IMG/VR virus record: IMGVR_UViG_3300045135_001981 | Coordinates: 1-37,818 of that record | DNA length: 37,818 nucleotides | Strand: one strand, 5' to 3' | Origin: a virus | Part shown: positions 3,109 through 15,603 of the stretch, piece after piece | How positions within the stretch are numbered: the stretch's first letter is position 1 | How the letters are laid out: each line of letters opens with the position of its first letter | Notes under the pieces: model-generated | What the model saw: only the letters and a program-made list of their open reading frames with translations | What the model was told of the DNA's origin: nothing | The model's database searches: none | Made by a program: the position numbers and the translations under genes

Positions 3109-5257
3109 ATAAAGCGTCTTTATGGTAGAAAGCTTTGGTAGCCGATTTCATGATAGAAGTCAGTATCTCAGTTTCATCCATTGGTTCAGGTAATTTACTA
3201 TTTAAGGTCATTACACTATTTTGTATTTGCTCGAGCTCATAGCCATTATCTACGAGCATCATCGCATACTTATGTAATTGCCTATTTCTATTGCCATTAC
3301 CTGTATTGCGCATAAACCAACGTTCCATGTGAGTCATGGATTGCTGATCTAGAAGGATCTGTTTACGCTCATCGTTCTTTTTAGTTTTAGGTATAAACTG
3401 AAGAGCGTCTAACATTTCACCTTCATTATAAGAATATGTACCTCTGTGAGATAGCCATTTCTTACTTCGTTGGTTGGTTCCATCATCTACCTCAAATGGA
3501 AGCCATTCATAAATATTATTCATGAATTCTTTATACTCATCAGCATCTAGCTTCAGTGTATGGCTTAAAGGTATTAAGATTCTGAATCTATTTTCAGAGT
3601 CAGTATGGCGCTTAGTTGTATACATATGATTTTTATAGTCTTTAAGTAACAACTCAGCAGTAGCCATAGGAACGCCACCATCAACATCAATCACTACTAT
3701 ATTAAATCCGGGTATCGCATTTTTTTCTAGTCTGTGACCATCTACCATATGGTGAGATATCCAATGATATCCTTCTGCTTGGGTAAGCTTATGGATACTA
3801 TTGAATGATGTCTCTTTAGGAACATAGTTCTGAGCTAAGTCAGTGCTGTAAGCAAATTTCATTTTACTAAGATCAGTCTCTTCTAGGGTTTCCCCTTGCA
3901 GGAATTCAATTCCATCATTGTAGACTTTCTTAATAATCATGTTATTCCGGTAGCCATATGCTACTGCCTGGGTCATCATCTCTCTCTTAAATGATTCACT
4001 GCCCTTATAAAAAGGCAATGCTTCAGTAAGATCGACATGGGTAACCTCAGTACCTACTTTGGAAATGTACTTAGCAAGCTTCACGTAGTTCTTGTCACGT
4101 GTAAGCATACGATCGAACGATACTCCAGAAGCCTCTACAAGCTTTATAGCACTTAGTAAGTGCTCTTCTTGTATATCAGGGGTACATCCAATAAAAGCGT
4201 ACATACCAGCTAATTTGAGAGCTTTAAAATAGCGGTGTGTCATTTCCGCTTTTCTAATCTCATCATGGTCGCCGAATTGTGCAGCTCTATTTTCACACCA
4301 AATCTGATATTCAATTAGCTTTAACGTGAGATCTTTAGATATATTTAAGCTATGACCAAAGTTAACTGGATCGGCTAAATTACCTAGTTTATCTGCAAGT
4401 GAAAGTATAAAGCTTTCAGAAGAGGAGTCGGTGAGAGAGTTGTATCTAGCTAATGGATCATCTTTTTTGGCATTAACGTTAAGGCCGCTATATCCAAATA
4501 GGCATCTACGTGCGTAGCCTGCCTCTAGCATTGATAGAAATTCATGTTCTATTCGCCCACCATCAAATAGTTTAGAGGGTGTACCAAATAGCATCATGTT
4601 AGTAGGAGTCCTACCATCAATCTCTTCACCACGAATGTTTTCGGCAGTATTCTTAGTTAACTTCTGTTTGATTTTACCAACATCGTATAACTCAAGAAAT
4701 GGGTTAAGTACATCCACATTACCCAATAAGTTTGAGCCAATCTCATCTATCTCCATATTCATGGAGCCTGCTTCTGCCATTAGCAATTTATGCCTTAACT
4801 GCTTAACTGCTGCTGGCGTACCACTATCAAATGAGAAGGCCAGTTCTCCTGCCATTGTGAACTCTTTCTTTACACGCTTCAGTTCTTCATTTGGATCAGT
4901 TGCCTTTTTAAGGGCCCTAGTGTTAGCTAGACTAACCAAATTCATTTCTGAAATGGTAGGAAAGGTTTCATCTACAAATCTTTCTCTGAAGATATGTATA
5001 ACTTGTTCCTCTACAATATTAGTACTTAGGCCTTTTCCGTAGCCACTTGTGGCTAAGTTAATGGCATACATATTGATAGGAACATTCCCCCGGTCATGTG
5101 TATTTATCCCAACACGCATCATGGAGGTTATTTTACAAAAGTAATATGCTACTAATACGTGAAAGAATAGCTCATCTGAGTTTTGTGTTTTATTGCACAG
5201 TATTTTAACGAGCTCTGCAGAATCCTTATTGTACTCTGCCTTTGACATATCAAACAT
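3107..5257 (-). CDS. Primase-helicase-like replication protein (N4 gp43-like)
   Basis: About 716 residues. The N-terminal half resembles the DUF3987 helicase-like group: an altered P-loop (SGYGKGLST) near residue 72 and an acidic strand MNMEIDEIGSNLL. The C-terminal third has a primase-like fold: VVIDVDGG followed by RFRILIPLSHTL, as in primase-polymerase palm domains. It sits between the nuclease (gp42-like) and gp44-like genes, as in N4, where gp43 is essential for replication. The ATG at 5257 is preferred because AAGGA lies eight bases before it; ATGs at 5266 and 5248 are alternatives. It overlaps the upstream gene by 8 bases. The stop is TAG and forms part of a hairpin. Confidence 0.75.
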   Translation of the reverse strand: MFDMSKAEYNKDSAELVKILCNKTQNSDELFFHVLVAYYFCKITSMMRVGINTHDRGNVPINMYAINLATSGYGKGLSTNIVEEQVIHIFRERFVDETFPTISEMNLVSLANTRALKKATDPNEELKRVKKEFTMAGELAFSFDSGTPAAVKQLRHKLLMAEAGSMNMEIDEIGSNLLGNVDVLNPFLELYDVGKIKQKLTKNTAENIRGEEIDGRTPTNMMLFGTPSKLFDGGRIEHEFLSMLEAGYARRCLFGYSGLNVNAKKDDPLARYNSLTDSSSESFILSLADKLGNLADPVNFGHSLNISKDLTLKLIEYQIWCENRAAQFGDHDEIRKAEMTHRYFKALKLAGMYAFIGCTPDIQEEHLLSAIKLVEASGVSFDRMLTRDKNYVKLAKYISKVGTEVTHVDLTEALPFYKGSESFKREMMTQAVAYGYRNNMIIKKVYNDGIEFLQGETLEETDLSKMKFAYSTDLAQNYVPKETSFNSIHKLTQAEGYHWISHHMVDGHRLEKNAIPGFNIVVIDVDGGVPMATAELLLKDYKNHMYTTKRHTDSENRFRILIPLSHTLKLDADEYKEFMNNIYEWLPFEVDDGTNQRSKKWLSHRGTYSYNEGEMLDALQFIPKTKKNDERKQILLDQQSMTHMERWFMRNTGNGNRNRQLHKYAMMLVDNGYELEQIQNSVMTLNSKLPEPMDETEILTSIMKSATKAFYHKDAL

Positions 5258-5588: not shown

Positions 5589-6580
5589 TTAAGTAAGCCC
5601 TCGTGTTTTAATTTAACTGCTTGTTCACAGATGTTAATAGCCTTACAGTAATGACAGGCTTTAACCTCTCCCTTTACTTCAATTACCGTACCAACGCATC
5701 CATCTTCCATAAGACGGTTATTAGCATCAGTAGGGTTATCAAAATTCTTTGTGCTTCGTTTACCGGGAACACCAGCGTGAGCTGGATTCTTAAAGTATTT
5801 CCATACTGGATTACTTTGCCATAAATCTTCACTAGTGCATTCTGGTATTTGATCCTGAGATGCGTCTTTAAGACGTATAATATCTGCTACTTTATTTTGT
5901 AGATAGCTTTCAGTTTCTTCTACAGAAAGGAGCTGTAGCGGATAATCAAGTACTCGAGTAGGAGGATATGCTGATTTACTCCCTGCTTTGGCTCTATTAG
6001 CTGACCAGTCAGTAAATATAAAATCAATGTGCATTATATCATTAGTTATGATATCTGGGTTAAGCCATCGATAAATAGATCCTTGTAAGATATATTTAGA
6101 ATCATTAATACCTTTTTCATAAGTGTATGTAGATGTGCTCTTGAAGTCCCGTACAGAGCCTTCCATGACCATATCGTATTTACCTGATACCTTATATGGG
6201 CCTACGGCTTTCTCGTTACGTTGCTCCATATAAATAGGTATATCGCCCTCTTCTACCGAAGTAGGGTTAATACGTACTTTATCTATTACAGCTTCTGGAT
6301 AGCCTAGAGCTTTTAGTCCATCTTCGTATTTGTGAGTCCAGGCAGACTCTATACTGTCATGGAAAGATGTACCCATGCGTGAAGCTACCATATCTGATAC
6401 TTCAGCTACTAGCTCCATGTCTCCACTTACAGCTTGCATTCCCAATACTATCTGACGAATAGGTTTAATGATGGTAGTAGTGCTTATTACCATTGGATCG
6501 TTCTGATAATCATAGGTATCGGTAGCTAACCATAATGCTACGGGTAATGAAGTATTCTTAGTATTCACATATTTAGTCAA
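5585..6580 (-). CDS. PD-(D/E)XK nuclease, Cas4/RecB-like (N4 gp42-like)
   Basis: 331 residues. Core nuclease pattern: an early H in the SFHDSIES helix, then GKYDMVMEGSVRDFKST near residues 132-147, giving the D...D-x-K catalytic triad typical of the RecB/Cas4 superfamily. A C-terminal cysteine cluster (C, then CHYC, then INIC) could hold an iron-sulphur cluster with the cysteine in PECTSEDLW, as in Cas4/AddB enzymes. It likely acts as an exonuclease in replication or recombination, or in host DNA breakdown. It overlaps both neighbours by a few bases. Confidence 0.8.
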   Translation of the reverse strand: MTKYVNTKNTSLPVALWLATDTYDYQNDPMVISTTTIIKPIRQIVLGMQAVSGDMELVAEVSDMVASRMGTSFHDSIESAWTHKYEDGLKALGYPEAVIDKVRINPTSVEEGDIPIYMEQRNEKAVGPYKVSGKYDMVMEGSVRDFKSTSTYTYEKGINDSKYILQGSIYRWLNPDIITNDIMHIDFIFTDWSANRAKAGSKSAYPPTRVLDYPLQLLSVEETESYLQNKVADIIRLKDASQDQIPECTSEDLWQSNPVWKYFKNPAHAGVPGKRSTKNFDNPTDANNRLMEDGCVGTVIEVKGEVKACHYCKAINICEQAVKLKHEGLLK

Positions 6581-6851
6581 GGTGCTTATCCTTTAATGAT
6601 TTGATAATATTATCTGTTTTAGTTAAAAATTCTTCATCCACTTTAGTGTTATGGTATTCATCAATCATTTTAGCAATGGCATTAGCACTATTTAAAAACT
6701 CGTCAATAGCTGTCATACAAGCAGTTTGAGTATTAGGTGGACGATAATAGGGCGCTATTTGGGTACCATAACCAAGAAGCGAATTATACTTATTTTGTAG
6801 TTGCAGCATTAAAGACCTAGCTGCAAGTACCCTATGATGTAGTCTTTTCAT
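6573..6851 (-). CDS. Hypothetical helical protein
   Basis: 92 residues, largely helical, with a basic start (MKRLHHRVLAARSLMLQLQ) and a charged C-terminal helix. It overlaps the nuclease start by 8 bases. No family recognised. Confidence 0.7.
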   Translation of the reverse strand: MKRLHHRVLAARSLMLQLQNKYNSLLGYGTQIAPYYRPPNTQTACMTAIDEFLNSANAIAKMIDEYHNTKVDEEFLTKTDNIIKSLKDKHLD

Positions 6852-6860
6852 TATGGGTTT

Positions 6861-7046
6861 CTACCTGGGTAACATAGATGGTTGTGTTGCAGCAGATAAT
6901 GTATCCCAGAAGTGTTTACGTAGCTCTGCATCTTGAGGAGATTCATCTGCTGTTGGGCTATTTTGTACAAACGCCTTTAACCAAAGCGCCTCCGATAAAC
7001 TCATAGATAGGTTTATTGTGATTTGGGTTTCTGTATTCGCTTTCAT
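6861..7046 (-). CDS. Hypothetical small phage protein
   Basis: 61 residues: a beta strand (TQITINLSM) followed by a helix EALWLKAFVQN and a short acidic segment with a second helix (RKHFWDTL). The pattern resembles small conserved phage proteins of unknown role. It is the last gene before the gene-free tRNA-like region. Confidence 0.7.
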   Translation of the reverse strand: MKANTETQITINLSMSLSEALWLKAFVQNSPTADESPQDAELRKHFWDTLSAATQPSMLPR

Positions 7047-7073
7047 TTTTTTATTTTCTCTTTAATGAATTTA

Positions 7074-7137
7074 TAGATAGCACTTCTATGAGGTTACGAT
7101 TTTTCATTTACTAATTAATTAGTTGAAGTGCTATCTA
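7074..7137. repeat. 13-bp inverted repeat enclosing a 14-bp palindrome
   Basis: TAGATAGCACTTC (7074-7086) and GAAGTGCTATCTA (7125-7137) are perfect complements separated by 38 bases. Directly before the right arm is the perfect palindrome ACTAATTAATTAGT (7110-7123). It stands between the last tRNA-like gene and the coding block, so it could end the stable RNA transcript or bind a protein. No T tract. Confidence 0.7.
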
Positions 7138-7145
7138 GAAATGCA

Positions 7146-7223
7146 CCTCCCCACTGGAATTGAACCAGTTCTTTCTCCGGTTCCTTGATCAGAGGATGGA
7201 GATCACTTATACCTAGAGGGAGG
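7146..7223 (-). tRNA. tRNA-like gene, possible anticodon GAT
   Basis: 78 bases. Acceptor CCTCCCT pairs with GGGGAGG; the T arm is canonical (ACTGG-TTCAATT-CCAGT). The D region can fold as AGGT/ATCT but its loop lacks the usual GG. The anticodon arm TCCT-CTGATCA-AGGA would give anticodon GAT (Ile) but with C at position 37, and can extend through TCTCC/GGAGA. No CCA is encoded. A divergent or degenerating tRNA is likely. Confidence 0.5.
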
Positions 7224-7231
7224 TTAATGGA

Positions 7232-7325
7232 TGTAGGCGGTCGGAATCGAACCAACGGTCTTAAGTCTTAATCCTAACCAACGGCATATACATTTTATGG
7301 TGTATATGAAGGGAATCGAACCCTA
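7232..7325 (-). tRNA. Two interlocked tRNA-like segments with swapped acceptor strands
   Basis: On the - strand: T arm (TAGGG-TTCGATT-CCCTT), then acceptor strand CATATAC and ACCA (7298-7308), then TAAAAT, then GTATATG (7285-7291) followed by GTTGGTTAG (D-loop-like), then a second T arm (GTTGG-TTCGATT-CCGAC) and CGCCTAC. GTATATG pairs perfectly with the upstream CATATAC, not with the downstream CGCCTAC; the latter partly fits GTAGG at 7342-7346. Read normally each unit is too short (about 47 and 60 bases). Two canonical T loops and an encoded ACCA are visible; whether this makes a functional (permuted) tRNA is inference. Confidence 0.45.
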
Positions 7326-7375
7326 TACGCTCACCAGAGACCTACATAATATAACCGCTTACGTCCGGTCAATCG

Positions 7376-7392
7376 GCAGATTTAGAGCCTGC
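7376..7392 (-). ncRNA. Anticodon-like arm with CUA (amber) loop
   Basis: The - strand folds GCAGG-CTCTAAA-TCTGC: a 5-bp stem and 7-base loop with U33 and anticodon CUA, flanked by CCG, very like the tRNA-Tyr arm with CUA in place of GUA. I find no canonical T arm at the right distance for it, so the whole tRNA cannot be drawn. Confidence 0.35.
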
Positions 7393-7885
7393 TACACTCA
7401 TATCTTCGCTATATGATGCGGGAACACGTAATTTTTACAAGTAAGTCTTTCCATAATACTTGTGGTAAGCCTATTAACTTACCAGTATCTGATTAACTGC
7501 ACTGGCTTAATCCCTATGCTTGAGATTCTCCAATCGAGCCGCCATCTGTTAATCAAATTAAATGAATCCCCAAAGGTAACTTTTAACTAGTCCAGCTAAA
7601 TAGCCTTCCCTGTACGAGGTCTACCAATCTCACAGTTTTATCCGCTGCTTTAGGGGGATTCTAAAATCTTAGGTACCTTACGGGTACGAATCGGGTTTGG
7701 ACGTTCCCACGTAAACCAATCGTGTGTTAGGGGAAAGCAATGTACGAGAAACCCTTGGAACTTATACCCTTATAGGAGGATACGGCCCACCTACATCATA
7801 TGAATGTATCTACTCGGTAAGGAGGCCCAAGTCAATGAAAGTGATTCATACCTTTGATGTGTAGGATTTTGCTACTGGGAGTTCC
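7393..7885 (-). other. Gene-free structured region
   Basis: No coding frame of note. The - strand has many short strong hairpins: TCATAT/ATATGA (near 7400), ACAAGTA/TACTTGT (7433-7461), GGTAAG/CTTACC (7464-7483), GTACC/GGTAC (near 7680), GGTTT..ACGT/ACGT..AAACC (near 7700), GTAG/CTAC (7860). GAATCCCC/GGGGATTC spans 7564-7661. Together with the tRNA-like arms next door this suggests further stable RNA genes, possibly degenerate tRNAs, but no canonical T loop is present. Confidence 0.4.
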
Positions 7886-8278
7886 TTAACCGTATTTTTC
7901 AGTTAATATTTTTGTGGCTTCTTCTTTAGTAAGAAACCAACCTATATATGTGGTATACGGGCAATGTTTAAGTGTTTTACTAGGTTTAGTTCGATACGAA
8001 AGTTTTCTAGTTTCATTATTAATGTATACGTATAGTACATTTCCTCGCTTAAAAGCAGCATGTACACTATCTCGTATATGAATAGCTTCTTTGCTTAATG
8101 GTTCACGAACTAGGGGCGGAGCCCCTGTATACTTATTAGCTTCTGTGGCTGCCTCTAAGCCCCTACAATAAGATTCATACATGTCAGCTTGCCTGGTACT
8201 CATAGGATCTGTTATAGGGCTTCTATGTAGATCTGAAGTGTCTTTTTCAAACTGAGCTAATAGCTCTGATTTAGTCAT
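7886..8278 (-). CDS. Hypothetical protein
   Basis: 130 residues, charged, with an N-terminal helix (SELLAQFEKDTSDL), a middle segment rich in helices, and a C-terminal beta-like part ending in a helix (TKEEATKILTEKYG). The ATG shares one base with the stop of the preceding membrane-protein gene, so the two are coupled. No family recognised. Confidence 0.7.
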   Translation of the reverse strand: MTKSELLAQFEKDTSDLHRSPITDPMSTRQADMYESYCRGLEAATEANKYTGAPPLVREPLSKEAIHIRDSVHAAFKRGNVLYVYINNETRKLSYRTKPSKTLKHCPYTTYIGWFLTKEEATKILTEKYG

Positions 8279-8520
8279 TACATTTTCCTATTTAATTTAA
8301 AAGATCTTTCTTTAACCAAGAAAGGTACCAATCCCATAAAAACAAATGCGATCCTGGAAACTGGATATAGCAAAACTAGAATAAGGAAATAGTGGATTTG
8401 GTTTTTATCCCATATATCCTCTAATGTTTCGTAATTGTATCTGCCATAAATAATAAGTCCCTGAGCTGTTATCAAAGAAGGGAGCAACCAAAATAAAATT
8501 AGCGTATCACTGACAGACAT
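8278..8520 (-). CDS. Small membrane protein, two helices
   Basis: 80 residues with hydrophobic helices at about 5-26 and 43-68, the second ending before a basic tail (VKERSFKLNRK). Its ATG overlaps the TGA of the upstream gene (TGATG); a GTG one codon earlier is also possible. Base composition is AT-rich like the phage backbone, unlike the gene before it. Confidence 0.7.
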   Translation of the reverse strand: MSVSDTLILFWLLPSLITAQGLIIYGRYNYETLEDIWDKNQIHYFLILVLLYPVSRIAFVFMGLVPFLVKERSFKLNRKM

Positions 8521-8879
8521 CACTTACCCTCTCTTAGTTGTTGAGAATATAGATCTAGTTGCCTATCGAATTGATCAACAGTCTTGTCGAAGATTGCCAC
8601 AGACACTTCATCGTTGCTTTGGCAGACCAGTATTGCGTTCTTCTTAGCCTCTTCAACCGCCGTTGCTTTGATTTCGTTTAGTGCTTTGATAGGAGCTTCT
8701 TCAAACAACGAATCAACTTCAGAACAATCCACTTCATAGTAATTCAGCGTTTCGTTCTCGTAGCTGATTACGTTTGAATTGCTGACTAGATTTCGCAACC
8801 TCTCAACCTGCGCCTGAAGCTCTTGGATTTGTTTTTCTTGTTCGTAAATCTTTTCTGCGTCTGATTGATACGGGCTCAT
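8520..8879 (-). CDS. Coiled-coil hypothetical protein at the cassette-array boundary
   Basis: 119 residues. Residues 9-33 form a clear coiled coil (YEQEKQIQELQAQVERLRNL); the rest is acidic and helical. The start is preceded by TTGGAGAG. The gene is richer in G+C than the phage backbone and lies directly downstream of attC-1, so it may be the last cassette, one that lost its own attC and is now fused by TGATG coupling to the phage membrane-protein gene; or it is a native gene next to the insertion point. Confidence 0.65.
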   Translation of the reverse strand: MSPYQSDAEKIYEQEKQIQELQAQVERLRNLVSNSNVISYENETLNYYEVDCSEVDSLFEEAPIKALNEIKATAVEEAKKNAILVCQSNDEVSVAIFDKTVDQFDRQLDLYSQQLREGK

Positions 8880-8978
8880 TTTTCACTCTCCAATAAAAAG
8901 TAAGTGGCAGTTTCGCTACGCTGGCACTGCCGAGCCTCGGTAAGAATACTGACGATTGTCAGCACTCCCTAAATGCCC

Positions 8979-9026
8979 ACATAACAAAACGCTCTTGCGG
9001 ATAAACCGCAAAGCTTGGGGTTAGGC
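8979..9026 (-). repeat. attC: Integron attC site 1
   Basis: 48 bases. On the - strand it runs from core GCCTAAC to GTTATGT, with inner arms CTTTGCGG and CCGCAAGAG that pair leaving an extrahelical G, the asymmetry that attC sites use to choose the strand recombined. The TAA stop of the preceding Cys-rich gene lies inside the GCCTAAC core, as is common in cassettes. Confidence 0.8.
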
Positions 9027-9278
9027 GTCATTAGTCCTGCGCGGAATAACTTTAATTTCAGCCTCTTCATAATCTCCGCATTGCGCGTATTTCTCAGAAG
9101 TACAAGCAGTTGGCGAGTTTAATCTACCTCGCTTGCTGCAAAACTGGCATAGCTGAAGTTTGCCTTCAAAATCTCTACGCTCCCAAACAAACTTATCAAC
9201 ACCTAAACCAGAAATATTGCAATCCGTAGTGTATTTATTTTCATCATAATCAAGGTGCTTACACGCTCTAGTTTCCAT
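9021..9278 (-). CDS. Cassette-encoded cysteine-rich protein, probably zinc-binding
   Basis: 85 residues from the ATG at 9278 (AGAAGGA lies upstream; an ATG at 9305 would put the ribosome site inside the gene). Cys/His pattern: CKHLDY, TTDC, CQFC, TAC, AQC, with a WERR segment in the middle, as in small zinc-ribbon-like proteins that I associate with integron cassettes. The frame ends within attC-1 and begins just after attC-2, filling one cassette. Function unknown. Confidence 0.75.
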   Translation of the reverse strand: METRACKHLDYDENKYTTDCNISGLGVDKFVWERRDFEGKLQLCQFCSKRGRLNSPTACTSEKYAQCGDYEEAEIKVIPRRTNDA

Positions 9279-9309
9279 CTTATTTTTTCCTTCTAAAGTT
9301 AACAAATGT

Positions 9310-9363
9310 GCCTAACAAGGCGCATCAATCGGACTCTACGAGCCGTTGTGCTTGGGGTTAGGC
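9310..9363 (-). repeat. attC: Integron attC site 2
   Basis: 54 bases with perfect outer cores GCCTAAC/GTTAGGC (fitting RYYYAAC and GTTRRRY) and imperfect inner complementarity (AAGCACAACGG against CCGATTGATGC). It shares the GCTTGGGGTTA end and the CAATCGGACT segment with its neighbours, showing one attC family. Confidence 0.85.
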
Positions 9364-9388
9364 GCCCTACGTAAGCAGCGCACTTAAA

Positions 9389-9784
9389 CTAAGCCGCTAG
9401 TTTTTCTTTAAGTAAATAGCCTTCAAGCATCCAAATCTTATTGCGTGCATTTTCACGCGCAATCTTTTGACCTATCTCAGCATCAAAGTTTTCAGGGCTT
9501 GCACAGGCAGACTCACCTGTAACAATAAAACCATTCTCTAAAACCAAAATACAAATGGTAAGCGTACCTAAAGCTGCATCCATGGCATTCTCAAATACAG
9601 GTGTATACTTACCGTCCATCTTTTTAAACCCCACCTTATTAGGTTCACCAGACATATAATTGGCCGCAGCAAGACCGTTAATAAAAGTCGTTCTTACAAT
9701 CTTGGATTCAATAAGGTCGGGAGTTAAACGTGGCGCGTTCAAGTTCTTTTCTTGGATCTCTTTTTCAATAGCTTGTTCAGTCAT
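9389..9784 (-). CDS. Gp49/Gp66-family phage protein carried as a gene cassette
   Basis: 131 residues. The C-terminal half (LTICILVLENGFIVTGESAC, then NFDAEIGQKIARENARNKIW and LEGYLLKEKL) matches the N4 gp49 / Sf6 gp66 family of phage proteins of unknown function. In N4 this gene sits near the end of the middle block. Here it lies precisely between attC-2 and attC-3, so either a phage gene became a cassette or a cassette version replaced the native copy. Confidence 0.8.
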   Translation of the reverse strand: MTEQAIEKEIQEKNLNAPRLTPDLIESKIVRTTFINGLAAANYMSGEPNKVGFKKMDGKYTPVFENAMDAALGTLTICILVLENGFIVTGESACASPENFDAEIGQKIARENARNKIWMLEGYLLKEKLAA

Positions 9785-9814
9785 TCTAATTTCTCACTCT
9801 ATAGGTAATGTAGC

Positions 9815-9871
9815 GCATAACAACTAGCATCAGTGGACTTGCTACGCAAGCCACAAAGCTTGGGGTTATGT
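9815..9871 (-). repeat. attC: Integron attC site 3
   Basis: 57 bases, - strand ACATAAC...GTTATGC. The inner hairpin GTGG-CTTGC-GTA-GCAAG-T-CCAC pairs fully apart from one extrahelical T. The stop of the upstream gene (TAA at 9866-9868) is inside the core. Confidence 0.8.
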
Positions 9872-10069
9872 GCCTTTAATCTCATAATCTTCAAGCTCAA
9901 ATTCGCCATCTGTCATAGTTGCTCGCCCGTTTGTCATATCGCCTGCCACTTCATCTCTGAACGAACCATCCAGCTCTTCAATTAGTTTATTCATTTGAGT
10001 TTCTTCAAGCTCTATTTCGACTGTGTGCATAATCGTTTCTTTCACATAAATAACTGCTTTTTGATTCAC
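9866..10069 (-). CDS. Cassette-encoded small acidic protein
   Basis: 67 residues from a GTG start at 10069 behind AAGAGGA; an internal ATG (MHTVEIELEE) would give about 54 residues. Acidic (ELEETQMNKLIEELD), mixed alpha/beta. It ends inside attC-3. It shares one cassette with the next gene; the one-base gap between them indicates coupled translation. Function unknown. Confidence 0.65.
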   Translation of the reverse strand: MNQKAVIYVKETIMHTVEIELEETQMNKLIEELDGSFRDEVAGDMTNGRATMTDGEFELEDYEIKGT

Positions 10070-10070
10070 T

Positions 10071-10253
10071 CTAAATCCTCTTAAGAGTTTTTCTTAACTG
10101 CTCACCTAGCCCAATTAGCCCATTGTGGGAAGCGCTTAGTTCGTCATAAATAACACCGTCTTTCCACCAAAGGTGCCTCTGTTTGCAGTACCAAAGTCCA
10201 TCTGCCACCTCTTCTGAACTTGCACCACCAAATGCTTGAAATTTAGTTCTCAT
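10071..10253 (-). CDS. Cassette-encoded small protein
   Basis: 60 residues, with a tryptophan-rich middle (LWYCKQRHLWWKDGVIYDEL) and a basic C-terminal helix (GLGEQLRKTLKRI). AGAGG lies nine bases before the ATG. First gene of a two-gene cassette between attC-4 and attC-3; stop TAG. No family recognised. Confidence 0.65.
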   Translation of the reverse strand: MRTKFQAFGGASSEEVADGLWYCKQRHLWWKDGVIYDELSASHNGLIGLGEQLRKTLKRI

Positions 10254-10301
10254 TATTCGTTACCTCTGTTTCTATACTTTTCCATTCTATGCAATCCTCA
10301 C

Positions 10302-10348
10302 GTCTAATAAGGCGCTCAATTGGACTCTGTTAGTGCTAGTCGGTTTAG
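10302..10348 (-). repeat. attC: Degenerate integron attC site 4
   Basis: The half at 10302-10330 (GTCTAATAAGGCGCTCAATT, then GGACTCT) closely matches attC-2 (GCCTAACAAGGCGCATCAAT). The other half is poorly conserved and the second core is unclear, so this site may be decayed or recombined. Confidence 0.55.
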
Positions 10349-10374
10349 TTTTTTCATAGCCTTGTATTCCTTAT

Positions 10375-10566
10375 TTATAGATAGCTTTGTTCTTGGTACT
10401 TTATGTAGCCAAGCAAAACTGGTGTAAATATTGGAGCCGTAATTAAGTGAAGCAGCATCCCGAAAACCGTTAAAGGATCGGTACGCCCCTCTTTAATGCC
10501 TCCCGCAATTAAACCAATCGTGTATAGATAACACCCAAAACAGTAAATAATAATTACTGGTTCCAT
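10375..10566 (-). CDS. Cassette-encoded membrane protein
   Basis: 63 residues with two hydrophobic helices (about 3-22 and 33-53) joined by a charged turn (KEGRTDP). GGAGATACAAAAG precedes the ATG. It precedes attC-4, as a cassette gene should. Small two-helix proteins are frequent among integron cassettes; specific role unknown. Confidence 0.65.
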   Translation of the reverse strand: MEPVIIIYCFGCYLYTIGLIAGGIKEGRTDPLTVFGMLLHLITAPIFTPVLLGYIKYQEQSYL

Positions 10567-10834
10567 CTTTTGTATCTCCGATAAATTTTAAATTTGGTGC
10601 CATTCGCTGATATCTAACCCCTCGCGCAATGGCTGGCGCGTAGACTAACTTAGCCTAGTTATTTAACGCTTCTTTTTATCCGTCGATTACTTAGAAGTCG
10701 GCTCGACCTAGCTATACTCGGCTTGCCTTTATGTGTACGGGGCGGCTCCCGTTTCGCTTCGGGCTATTACGCCCCAAAATCACACACTGATTAACGAAAG
10801 TCTGGTCTTTTTCTCATATAGGGCCTCTTTGGTA
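10567..10834. other. Right edge of the cassette island: palindromic, GC-rich, no gene
   Basis: Contains ATCTAACCCC (10614-10623), resembling an attC core plus its CCCC neighbour but inverted relative to attC-1 to -3, followed by CGCGC/GCGCG arms; then short repeats (GTCGGCTCGAC near 10698) and a strong hairpin GGGGCG...CGCCCC (10739-10775) with inner CCCG/CGGG. No coding frame. It looks like remains of cassette or integron DNA next to the phage backbone. Confidence 0.5.
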
Positions 10835-11068
10835 TTACTTAGTTTTAGGTAACTGTTTATTAAGAATATCTTTCTTATACACAGTCCAAACTAACCATAC
10901 TGGTCTAGGATAATGAATAATATGTTTAAGAGATTTACGTGTGGAAGGGATCTTACAGTGTTTTCTGTATCGTTTAGCCATACGAACTACTTGTCTTTGA
11001 GGATCATCACTAAGATAAGCTGCTAAGCACATATGAAGAGTCATACGGGTGATGCTAGTTACCTTCAT
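10835..11068 (-). CDS. Hypothetical basic protein
   Basis: 77 residues, strongly basic (RMAKRYRKHCKI, RKSLKHIIHYPRPVW). First phage-backbone gene downstream in transcription of the membrane gene below, overlapping its end by 14 bases. Function not recognised. Confidence 0.6.
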   Translation of the reverse strand: MKVTSITRMTLHMCLAAYLSDDPQRQVVRMAKRYRKHCKIPSTRKSLKHIIHYPRPVWLVWTVYKKDILNKQLPKTK

Positions 11069-11273
11069 ATACTTTATCTCTTATATCTTTTGCATATCTT
11101 AATAGTTCTTCTATACCTACAAGAACCCAACAAGATATAGATACCATGAAAAATTCCCATACTGCAGTACTATCACCTAAAAACATGAATACGAACATCA
11201 TGAAAGATGTAAATATACCAAAGATCCCATAGAACCATTCGATCCAATTAGCTTTTCTTTTAATAGTAGCCAT
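11055..11273 (-). CDS. Small membrane protein, two helices
   Basis: 72 residues: basic start (MATIKRKANW), hydrophobic helices at about 11-31 and 37-55, then a charged tail. It overlaps genes on both sides by 14 bases. Function unknown; inner-membrane location is likely. Confidence 0.65.
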   Translation of the reverse strand: MATIKRKANWIEWFYGIFGIFTSFMMFVFMFLGDSTAVWEFFMVSISCWVLVGIEELLRYAKDIRDKVYEGN

Positions 11274-11451
11274 TTTGGTTTTTCTCCTTTATCCATCTTA
11301 TATAGTTACCGCAGTCCGGACACCATTTAAGATTATGAGTTTGAATTAATACGAGCTGTGTATTACCACAGCTACATACTTTAGTTGTTTGTTTTTTAGT
11401 AATCTCGGATGAGGTTTTCAAGAGAGATTTCGTTAATAGTTGCTCCGCCAT
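11260..11451 (-). CDS. Small zinc-ribbon protein
   Basis: 63 residues from the ATG at 11451 (AAGGA eight bases upstream; an ATG at 11460 is less likely). Knuckles CSCGN and CPDCGN separated by about 17 residues form a zinc ribbon (VCSCGNTQL...KWCPDCGNYI). It overlaps the end of the phosphoesterase gene by 56 bases in another frame. Confidence 0.6.
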   Translation of the reverse strand: MAEQLLTKSLLKTSSEITKKQTTKVCSCGNTQLVLIQTHNLKWCPDCGNYIRWIKEKNQNGYY

Positions 11452-12169
11452 TTTTAACATCCTTAAGGTGTATTAGCCCTCTCCAATGGTGATTGCCTTG
11501 AGGGCCCATATACTTTTCATCATGTGAATAAAAAGCGCCACCTACAATACCAATACGTTCAGTACCGTCTGCTAAGTAGTGCTTACCTGATTTGAATGTT
11601 TGAGTATGTCCCTGCACGAAAGAGAAACCAGCATTCTTCATCATAGTATCTATTTGTCCACCAAGTGGCGATTTCTTAGCGCTATGGACGTTTACAAAGA
11701 AATGCGAGAAACGAATATCTTCTATGACTTTAATTTGTAAGAAAGGGATTACTTCAAAACCAAGTTCCTCTAAGAACTCAGTTGTTTTGTCTTCAATGAA
11801 ATCTTCAAGAATAGGATTTTCTTCGATTAGTCTAGGAATTCTAACTTGAGGATCGTGATTACCTACAATGTAGATAAGTTTTGGTTTATACCTTTTTTTC
11901 TTTTGAATTTTAGCTTTAGCGTTATACTCTCTTAAAGGCTCTAGGAGCTCTCTCATGGCCTCGTTGCCTGAATGCATATCTAGCCAGAGTTTATTCCCTT
12001 CAGCCTCTAGAGAGGTTGCAAATCGGTTTAAAGCAGGCATGTCCCAGTGGTCACCCATGTGTACAATGTACTCAGGTTGGTGCTCTACAATATAATTACC
12101 TGCTGCTTTAATATGATCTGTGTTAACACCAAACTTCACTTGCGTATCGGGAATAACTAAAATATCCAT
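11396..12169 (-). CDS. Calcineurin-like metallophosphoesterase
   Basis: 257 residues with the superfamily's ordered metal-binding motifs: IPDTQ (residues 6-10), MGDHWD (near 39), VGNHD (near 102), VNVHS, and GHTQT (near 190). Members hydrolyse phosphomonoesters or diesters in nucleic acids or nucleotides with two metal ions. It follows the DNA polymerase gene, so a role in nucleic acid processing is plausible; the substrate is unknown. Confidence 0.8.
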   Translation of the reverse strand: MDILVIPDTQVKFGVNTDHIKAAGNYIVEHQPEYIVHMGDHWDMPALNRFATSLEAEGNKLWLDMHSGNEAMRELLEPLREYNAKAKIQKKKRYKPKLIYIVGNHDPQVRIPRLIEENPILEDFIEDKTTEFLEELGFEVIPFLQIKVIEDIRFSHFFVNVHSAKKSPLGGQIDTMMKNAGFSFVQGHTQTFKSGKHYLADGTERIGIVGGAFYSHDEKYMGPQGNHHWRGLIHLKDVKNGGATINEISLENLIRDY

Positions 12170-12216
12170 ACTAAACTCACTAATTGATTAGGGAAGTTTG
12201 TATTTATATCAATTGT

Positions 12217-13116
12217 TTATCTTCTACACAACTTATGTATATCTACTTTAGTAGCTTGGTTTGGTAGAGTAGTAGCATCATTCCATGAAGGATAGAATAA
12301 ATCTACTTCACCTGATAGCTTAACTTCATCATGCATAATCTCAGGCAATTCTTGCCAAGCCATACAATCTGGAAGATTGTCGTTAAGCCACTTAATAGCT
12401 CCAAGGTTATTCTTTACTATTCCATAGATTGCATCATGGATCATAGCTATGATCTTAATGTCATTCTTATAAGGAGAGGCCAGAAGTCTTTCTTGGAAAT
12501 CTATACAAGCCCTGTTATTAAGTAACCCATAAGATTGACCTAATGCATTGCCTGCTGTTCTTCCTTCCGCAGCTGCTTCATATGGAGTAGCAGAGTTTCC
12601 AAGAATAGTTTGTCCTAATATAGGAGTACGTACCCTTAAACCAAATGCAGTAGTTATATATCCTACAGCGGAGGCAGCTTTTAATTTATCTGCTACCCAT
12701 GCATCTGATACTGAATACATATCATGATAGGCTTTTTCAACTGCTTTGGCTTTTTCTGGTGACCATCCCAAATTATTAACCATGGTATGCCATGTACCTT
12801 GGTAAGTAAGTGCGAAAGTAGGTGCTTTAGATTCTTGGCGCTCATTTGGGTAAGTAGTTTTAATACTATTAATGGATTGTACGGTTTCTACTATATCCGG
12901 CATATTAGCACCAAAGTAATAATAAGCACGTAAACAGTGCCCGCAGTAGCCGTCTATATAGACTTTTAGTTTATTAGGGTCTTTAGTTGTTAGTGCGGAT
13001 ATTCTATCTTCAAGAGAAGCAAAGTCTGCACCAAACATAACCCATCCATCTGCTGCTTTAAAACATCTTTTAATATGCTTAGCGTAGGTAGATCCTGAAG
13101 GGATGTTCTGTAAATT
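12217..13116 (-). CDS. Family A DNA polymerase, exon 2 (polymerase domain; N4 gp39-like)
   Basis: Holds motif A (GADFASLEDRISAL), motif B (ERQESKAPTFALTYQG) and motif C (MIHDAIYG) of family A polymerases. The frame extends upstream of its first ATG (13038) through NLQNIPSGSTYAKHIK, the conserved segment that follows GRLSSxxP in Pol A enzymes. That places the exon start at 13116, right after the intron's terminal G. Exon 2 adds 299 residues, for 859 in all, close to N4's polymerase (about 870). In motif C the usual HDE is HDA here. Confidence 0.9.
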   Translation of the reverse strand, partial: NLQNIPSGSTYAKHIKRCFKAADGWVMFGADFASLEDRISALTTKDPNKLKVYIDGYCGHCLRAYYYFGANMPDIVETVQSINSIKTTYPNERQESKAPTFALTYQGTWHTMVNNLGWSPEKAKAVEKAYHDMYSVSDAWVADKLKAASAVGYITTAFGLRVRTPILGQTILGNSATPYEAAAEGRTAGNALGQSYGLLNNRACIDFQERLLASPYKNDIKIIAMIHDAIYGIVKNNLGAIKWLNDNLPDCMAWQELPEIMHDEVKLSGEVDLFYPSWNDATTLPNQATKVDIHKLCRR

Positions 13117-13923
13117 CTTAATATTCGAGAGAGTGCGTTACTACTCTTTCCGTTCTCTTATGAACTGCTACATATCTCTATATAGAATAGACCATATCAA
13201 CATCCAAAATGGATGCTTGCTGTTTCCAGTCACTTGACTGTACTCCCCTACGGGATGGTCGTTAGGCATTTAATTACATATTATGTTTCTGGGTCGATCA
13301 TCTAAACCTAGTTGATCTAATGCCCAGTTAACATGAAGTGCTGCTTCTTCTTCAGTATTAAAACGTTTTTGATGGTAAGTTTTTCCATCAAGTCTTACCG
13401 CAGCTCTCCACTTATTTCTGCCTTTATCGTACCCCACATTGTGGTACTTACTTGCAGTAGATAATTTCAATCCTTTAGTTGGATTGTTATAAATCTTTAA
13501 ACCATTATCGAGCGCATGTCGTTTATTTTCTGAAGAGCTAACCCATTCTAGGTTATAAACATTATTGTTTAGTTTATTACCGTCAATGTGGTTCACTTCT
13601 TTCTTTTCATCGGGATTAGGTATGAACGCTTGAGCCACTAATCTGTGGACTAAGCGATGTTTCCTATCACCTCCGGCAGTTAACTTAATAGCTACATAGC
13701 CTGAGTTTATGATGTAAGTCTTGAGATGCTTTTGTCTATTTTTTATAGTCCCATCTGAGCCTATTAAATAATATCCATTAGTATCTTCTATTTCTTTATA
13801 TGTAATATTTAGCACGGGATTGTCCTCTGGTATATTAAACAATGTATTTTAATACATCGTATAGGAGTTTCCCCGTTTAAGCAAGTTTCGATATACCCTT
13901 ACAGGTATAAAGCCCTATTGTTA
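13117..13923 (-). mobile_element. Group I intron in the DNA polymerase gene, carrying an HNH gene
   Basis: 807 bases. Exon 1 ends ...AGCCAACCT with U at the 5' site; the intron begins TAACAATAGGG and ends ...TTAAG with terminal G before AAT-TTA-CAG. Removing it rejoins GRLSSSQP with NLQNIPSG in frame. Internal group I signatures: ACGGGGAAACTCC near the 5' end and AACGACCATCCC, TGGAAACAG and GTTGATATGGTCT in the 3' third. The last elements recur in the second intron of this window. Confidence 0.85.
13270..13842 (-). CDS. HNH homing endonuclease (NUMOD4/AP2 type), intron-encoded
   Basis: 190 residues. Order: NUMOD4-like start (YYLIGSDGTIKNRQKH), HNH core (HRLVHRLVAQAF, EVNHIDGNKLNNNVYNLEW), then an AP2-like DNA-binding C-terminus (KYHNVGYDKGRNKWRAAVR, EEAALHVNWALDQLG). 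Such enzymes cut the intron-less allele and spread the intron. The likely start is TTG at 13842. Homologous to the other intron's enzyme. Confidence 0.9.
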   Translation of the reverse strand: MFNIPEDNPVLNITYKEIEDTNGYYLIGSDGTIKNRQKHLKTYIINSGYVAIKLTAGGDRKHRLVHRLVAQAFIPNPDEKKEVNHIDGNKLNNNVYNLEWVSSSENKRHALDNGLKIYNNPTKGLKLSTASKYHNVGYDKGRNKWRAAVRLDGKTYHQKRFNTEEEAALHVNWALDQLGLDDRPRNIICN

Positions 13924-15603
13924 AGGTTGGCTACTAGATAGTCTTCCTGATACGGTACCTCCTAGATTAAATGAACCATGTAAGTAATATACTCCATCCT
14001 CTTTCTTTACTGAGTTTTCAATAAAAGCTTTAATGAAAGTCCCAAGTATTTTACTTACTTCACCGAGCTCGATCAGAGTTTCGAATAGCTCCGTATGCTC
14101 ATCACAAGTGGATCGATGAATAAGTTTTTTTAAAGTTTTAGCTCCTGTGGCAGGAAGCTTAGTATCAGTTAGATCTATAACTTCATATCCCAAGGTTTCA
14201 TATATCAATTTTTGCAATTGAGGTCCTGAAGCCGGGTTAAACACAATGTATTCATAGTATTCAGGAGCCCTAGGAGCAGATCTTGGTTTAGTGGCCCTAA
14301 TTGCATTGTCTTCTAGGCATGTTATTTCTCGCATTTGAGTAACAAATTCTTTGATAATGGGTAAATTATTTAATTTCTCAGATGCTTTATCTGCTATTGC
14401 AGTTAACTCTTTCTGTACATTAAATACTTCATCCATATCTAAAGGCATACCTGTTAGTTCCATTTGTAAGATAGTTCTCACAGATGGGAGCATAACGGTG
14501 TTATAGATCTCTTCTTGCTGATCCTGAAGCATTACAGGATGGTATTTATCTTTTACGAACAGAGTAGAAAGACAATCAATAAGGTTGTACCTGAGCAGAT
14601 CACAAAGCTTAATAAGCTTGATATCATTGATGTCTTCTTCTGCGTAGTTTCCTGCGAATTCATGAGCATTTTCCTTTAATCCAAGAACATTACCTGCTGT
14701 GCTGTTAGTAGCTAAATAGGTAATGATCTTAGTATCATCTATGTTTTTCCCTAGAGTATTCAACCCATTTAACATACCTTCGTTATCTAACATATGATCC
14801 ATGTATAATTCGTAAATGAGAACTTTTACATCGAAGTTAGCATTATGGTATGTAATCTTGCCTTTATAGGTATCAAAGAAATGTCTAAGCATTCCTTTAA
14901 CAAGTTGGTTATCTACTTGGATTCCAAATTTATTTTCTGGAAGTTGTTTATAATCAACAGCAAATGCACCACCACTATGCTTATCCCAAGCAAAAGCAAT
15001 AGTACCGATACCTGCTTCCCAGAACTTTAATGAGAAGGTCTCTATATCACATGCAAGTTCATCATATGCATGAAGAGAGTTTAGGAACTGAGAGATGCTT
15101 TCGAGCTCGCTAGGGTAATATTCGTATTTAATAATGTCTTTGCCTGGATCTACCTGAGAGCCCTTTATATGGCTTTCTAGTGTCTCTAGGGACATAGTTA
15201 ACTTTTCTTGTAAACTGGGATCATAAAATAATTGTTTATAATTTATCCCTAGAATTACATTCATGTGTTCGTAACCTTTGATTGTACAAGGGTATACGTA
15301 CCCTATACAGCCAGAGGTCTTACGTTGACCTGAGAGAACTTTAAAATATTCTGCATCAGCAACGTATAAAGTAGTTGTACCTAGGCTATCTAAAGACTTT
15401 AAGAGGGTTCCTAAGTACACTTTGATATCTGATACCTTAGGTTTTTTCTGTTTGTATTCAAGACTGAAGCTAATAACTTGATTACTTACATCTTGTAAAG
15501 GAGATATGTAATGTTTTTCTAATTCGTCTTTTATTAGTGCTTCTTGCTTAATCAGAAGTGCTATTGGGTATTTTGAGGCTGTCTGATGAATTATGTGATA
15601 CAT
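13924..15603 (-). CDS. Family A DNA polymerase, exon 1 (3'-5' exonuclease and thumb)
   Basis: 560 codons. Proofreading exonuclease motifs: Exo I ACDIETF (186-190), Exo II YHNANFD (252-258), Exo III YNLID (338-342). It ends at GTVSGRLSSSQP, the conserved sequence leading into the polymerase domain; the in-frame TAA that follows belongs to the intron. The first 150 residues have no family I recognise. The start at 15603 overlaps the upstream small gene by 56 bases; the family's length supports it. Confidence 0.9.

Follow-up and report, generated by a model that had tools for sequence, protein, structure and literature searches.

What are the small genes and imperfect palindromes crowded between 8979 and 10566 of the window, the 37,818-nucleotide stretch of viral DNA (IMG/VR record IMGVR_UViG_3300045135_001981) analysed here as a whole, and which way do they face? 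The original prediction took them for an integron gene-cassette array in an N4-like phage, in which each gene is followed by its own attC palindrome. The phage identity was borne out: the 37.8-kb window is an incomplete contig of an N4-like (Schitoviridae-type) phage, and encodes the C-terminus of the virion RNA polymerase, RNAP1, RNAP2, an N4-type primase, an exonuclease and a single-strand binding protein, besides a split DNA polymerase and a large terminase. The - strand holds most of its genes, including all those around the array. The latter lies in a variable interval of 5.6 kb (6581-12216) that extends from the exonuclease (to 6580) to the DNA polymerase (from 12217) and spans 73-6954 bases in relatives. 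In L299, another N4-like phage, this interval likewise contains an inverted attC array, whose genes are different. Polymerase and exonuclease aside, the window proteins encoded within 6573-12169 have no relative in the N4-like loci fetched, and hence there is no cassette common to them. As predicted, the array region is richer in G+C, albeit slightly (40.6% vs 37.2%; 4% of equal-sized stretches are equally rich).

Some further features of these phages may be recorded here. An HNH endonuclease gene (13270-13842) separates the ORFs 12217-13038 and 13921-15603, into which the window's DNA polymerase is split; the polymerase halves are separate in relatives too, often ~80 bases apart. An HNH endonuclease region at 21392-22125 matches Vibrio phages pVco-5 and pVco-7 at 76%, and is the sole near-identity DNA match to cultured phages within positions 1-24000. 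In L299, a gene apparently starts within the loop of an attC-like site, between L'' and L' (7007-7138).

Three of the four palindromes predicted to be attC sites are intact: site 1 (8979-9026, 48 bases, R''-L''-L'-R' orientation), site 2 (9310-9363, 54 bases) and site 3 (9815-9871, 57 bases), all on the + strand. They have a common anatomy of RYYYAAC/GTTRRRY-type cores, bulged inner arms with L'' and L', and a GCTTGGGGTTA end; the perfect cores foreseen for site 2, GCCTAAC at 9310 and GTTAGGC at 9357, are present, and the cores of sites 1 and 3 are variants, ACATAAC and GCATAAC, respectively. Extrahelical bases number three in site 2, at least two (C and A) in site 3, and one that is clear (a C in the 5' arm) in site 1. 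The fourth palindrome (10299-10335, +) was seen on inspection to retain only a lone R''-L'' half (GTCTAATAAGGCGCTCAATTGGACTC), without a model match, and is best described as a decayed attC. Between site 1 and the next gene (8880-8978) there is more hairpin-like sequence (GGCAGTTTCGCTACGCTGGCACTGCC), which may be a worn attC remnant.

Covariance models placed the three intact sites above chance. A model of 22 bacterial attC sites only (R1; class 1 and Vibrionaceae) was significant just for site 2 (21.8 bits, E 0.0018), scored site 3 poorly (E 0.4) and missed site 1, and for this reason a second model (R2) was built from 150 viral and bacterial sites with the window left out. R2 matched site 2 with 41.8 bits (E 6.9e-9), site 1 with 28.7 bits (E 1.9e-5) and site 3 with 19.7 bits (E 0.0043), its best match elsewhere in the whole window having an E of 3.9; Rfam gave no match at gathering thresholds. 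Among 101 sites from viral and phage loci, compensatory changes preserve the stem, with paired bases in 93% of cells and 323 double-sided changes where 92 were expected; as the alignment was fitted to the model, these figures lean towards structure. The predicted lack of an integron integrase also held, in that a TIGR02249 search found none in the 37.8-kb record, itself a fragment, and with it no complete integron of intI, attI and Pc. With three attC sites within 900 bases and no intI, the region is, by its sequence, an integron cassette array without integrase (CALIN) in an N4-like phage.

The direction of the array follows from the extrahelical bases, which lie on the R''-L'' arm of attC and choose the strand used by the integrase (Bouvier et al., 2009; PMC2727003). 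In site 2, the low-coordinate arm GCA[T]CAA[T]CGG[A]CTC faces GAGCCGTTGTGC, and in each site the R''-L'' arm is at the low-coordinate side; the canonical attC direction is hence + and the genes on the - strand are antisense to it. The R2 scores agree, dropping from the + to the - strand from 41.8 to 15.7 bits in site 2, from 28.7 to 10.2 in site 1 and from 19.7 to 9.7 in site 3, and in a strand control on bacterial arrays all 57 matches were on the cassette-array strand. On this evidence the cassettes of the window are inverted, with the predicted attC sites running along + and every cassette gene on -, and none has the canonical form of a gene sense to an attC at its 3' end. The order proposed at the outset, a gene and then its own attC, misread this polarity and was rejected: the extrahelical bases put the attC of each cassette 5' of its gene.

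The first cassette gene (9021-9305, -; 94 aa, or 85 aa from an internal ATG) has no assigned function and ends in a TAA stop that lies within the core of site 1; its protein yielded no family or relative in family and profile searches, and no match in tblastn against 72,556 plasmids or against phages. The second (9389-9784, -; 131 aa) belongs to the Phage_gp49_66 family (N4 gp49/Sf6 gene 66; PF13876, E 4.5e-30; phrog_322, E 6e-52), and its stop at 9389 is ~25 bases short of its core, not within it. The third (9866-10069, -; 67 aa, no family match) ends with a stop inside the core of site 3; this stop and that at 9021 had both been predicted. Its cassette also holds a gene for 60 aa (10071-10253, -) that starts just downstream, in the sense of transcription, of the decayed attC, upstream of which a gene for a hydrophobic protein of 63 aa (10375-10566, -) may represent a former cassette. 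PADLOC and NCBIfam returned nothing for the cassette proteins, and no defence or counter-defence role can thus be named. In another locus (L013, 4852-5288) a Phage_gp49_66 gene has an inverted attC directly before it (E 0.0006), and this gene family therefore recurs as a cassette.

Is the inversion peculiar to the window? Viral loci were gathered by pattern scans of IMG/VR, with patterns independent of gene direction, and as relatives of two proteins; the first scan (TAACAA...GCTTGGGGTTA) gave mostly chance matches and was filtered by hairpin energy. The viral set, to which the window and two GenBank phages belong, comprises 142 attC-to-attC intervals in 42 loci, and each interval was oriented by its longest ORF, subject to an ORF-length filter, relative to the attC strand assigned by the model. 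The longest ORF was antisense to attC in 105 of the 142 viral intervals compared with 3 of 37 bacterial ones (Fisher p 1.5e-13), the latter a small control confined to class 1 and Vibrionaceae arrays at 12 loci of bacteria or prophages, against which the phage-specificity of inversion is to be gauged. Because counts from longest ORFs only were noisy in G+C-rich contigs, stop and codon positions were checked as well. Stops ending at position 6 of the core (RYYTAA, before the C), the crossover point, occurred in 57 antisense versus 7 sense cases. Substitutions between homologous cassettes were distributed over the three codon positions of the antisense ORFs as 3/3/31, 7/6/29 and 17/12/35, and this third-position excess indicates that these ORFs are real genes. 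Some of the 37 sense viral intervals, about a quarter of the total, are probably wrong ORF calls, as in 23 of them the stop is remote from every core.

By their own annotation, cultured phage PH101 has attC on + (record positions 76529 and 77931) with genes on -, and MW202573 has attC on - with genes on +, while TJE1 has the canonical gene orientation. Of the metagenomic contigs checked for phage genes, 11 encode packaging, portal, tail, connector or further structural proteins. No intI-like match was detected in 18 of 23 contigs, and one contig had a match above the curated cut-off. A real integron integrase (358.9 bits), in two overlapping pieces and possibly frameshifted, is encoded at 42910-43867 of an attC-bearing IMG/VR contig (G018, L234) that may be a prophage or a bacterial integron.

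Cassettes are also shared between phages that have little else in common. The gp49 cassette, delimited as a mobile unit that comprises attC site 3, leader and gp49 gene up to the next core (9357-9872), recurs with 84-89% DNA identity in a 49.9-kb phage contig (G030; L005, 4913-5326, with the homologue of site 3 at 4914-4970), and the likeness ends at cores on both sides. It is the only blastn match of the window in that contig, which has a different type of DNA polymerase, a portal and a terminase, and otherwise no meaningful similarity to the window. Single cassettes common to otherwise different contigs were found for L220 and L236 (688 bases, 93%), L241 and L258 (341 bases, 91%) and L223 and L254 (378 bases, 86%). 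A single cassette lying between attC sites distinguishes L226 from the nearly identical phage L256; the hairpin that remains in L226 is not an exact copy of either L256 hairpin. Of 72 ends of homology, 29 lie close to attC, where 12% would be expected to do so (p 2e-9). We take these alignments to mean that cassettes move between phages. At ~3167 of L254, a shared cassette meets the phage backbone at a single GTTAGGC core, which is directly preceded by TAGTGTCTA and lacks a hairpin; this could be a secondary or attI-like point of entry.

Such movement need not involve an integrase at present, if cassette-like blocks are swapped by homologous recombination with the attC hairpins and cores serving as short homology for phage recombinases. 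The window does encode a Sak4-like annealing protein and an exonuclease, some homologous cassettes carry different hairpins, and intI is missing from those 18 of 23 contigs. However, homology alone would not keep the extrahelical bases, spacers and compensatory stem changes that have been retained, and the shared stretches stop at cores rather than randomly, all of which makes this explanation improbable.

We judge it quite improbable that these are ordinary host integron cassettes, dropped in by a host IntI and shuttled by the phage between host integrons, as the original prediction had it. The attC sites are real, the record has no intI, phage attC can recombine with IntI1 (Qi et al., 2023; PMC9892861) and a minority of viral intervals are in sense orientation, and movement in trans is indeed plausible. 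A host-integron origin of the cassettes found no support, however: all window genes are antisense to attC, unlike 34 of 37 bacterial intervals, and would be antisense to Pc in a host integron; the best-known cargo, Phage_gp49_66, is of phage type, and its cassette has relatives in phages, an unrelated one among them; and the plasmid set contains no match to the first cassette protein. The strict attC pattern TAACAA...GCTTGGGGTTAGGC, moreover, is nearly absent from 84,980 species genomes, its 2 isolated matches being probably due to chance, and hence points to no host. That the palindromes are regulatory hairpins only (terminators, processing sites or leaders of small phage genes) with a chance likeness to attC is highly improbable, for although the genes on either side of them are co-directional and they would fold in RNA too, not just in DNA, they score far above chance with attC models, site 2 even with the bacterial-only one, and have 7-base cores, one-sided bulges and stops at the crossover that terminators do not require, and cassette-bounded sharing would be left unexplained.

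The window thus probably harbours, in its variable exonuclease-polymerase interval, a CALIN that is part of a pool of inverted cassettes circulating among phages with integrase provided in trans. The sequences themselves establish which sites are attC and how they point, that the genes are antisense to them, that other phages have this layout too, and that cassettes are shared or gained with attC as the boundary; from them we infer that the exchange is carried out by an integron integrase acting in trans on the folded bottom strand of attC. In transcription order, a unit consists of attC, a leader with a ribosome-binding site, the gene and a stop codon, which the next core often supplies right at the crossover, and a cassette can therefore be gained or lost without frame breakage. 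Cassettes would be expressed from the phage's own operon, and the integrase acting on the folded bottom strand, which in the inverted layout is the coding strand, could come from the host chromosome, a plasmid or a co-infecting element. Homologous recombination at the conserved sites may contribute part of the exchange, and the differing hairpins of some homologous cassettes are not what exact swapping by integrase alone would predict. The sense orientation of about a quarter of viral intervals and canonical TJE1 also count against this explanation.

The inverted genes found here and in most other phage arrays suggest that phages have a cassette pool to themselves. Tentatively, and with less assurance than for the reading above, this pool may be separate from that of bacteria, with genes inverted so as to make the recombining strand the coding one, spread between unrelated phages by the integrases of co-infected hosts and mostly silent in bacterial integrons, where an inverted cassette would face away from Pc. 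If inversion is the rule, phages and bacterial integrons would have their recombination sites in common but gene polarities that are incompatible: phage operons would not read bacterial cassettes, nor would Pc read phage ones, and cassette traffic would run mainly from phage to phage. It would further provide a simple sequence test to separate phage from host cassettes, and account for the block-wise swaps of small accessory genes by phages. It would also raise the question of why the recombining strand should be the coding strand.

Comparison with known systems delimits what is new. Sedentary chromosomal and class 1 integrons resemble the window in attC cores, extrahelical bases and cassette-wise gain and loss, but have intI, attI and Pc, which the window lacks, and genes sense to attC (34 of 37 intervals). 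The record of Vibrio anguillarum prophage Va_90-11-286_p16 (MK672802) likewise contains an attC array; unlike the window's, it is part of the host's own chromosomal integron, has intIA, and shows mostly canonical gene orientation (locus L209: 9 sense, 2 antisense). The closest parallel is the work of Qi et al. (2023; PMC9892861), who describe 17 phage CALINs, attC arrays without integrase, some of them in virulent phages, with IntI1 activity for 5 of 6 phage attC sites assayed, a set that did not include those of the window. Integrase-less attC arrays in virulent phages are therefore already published and not new, contrary to the initial impression that arrays in lytic phages were barely described. 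Like the window, their phages PH101, TJE1, P12002L and MW202573 have such arrays with small cassette genes; when analysed here, PH101 and MW202573 shared the window's inversion and TJE1 did not. The accessible part of that paper makes no mention of inverted polarity, of one cassette shared by unrelated phages or of N4-like phages, and no report of systematic inversion was found in the literature searched, in which subscription papers were sparsely covered. Systematic inversion of the cassettes and their movement between phages hence appear to be the new elements that the present arrays add to these known systems.
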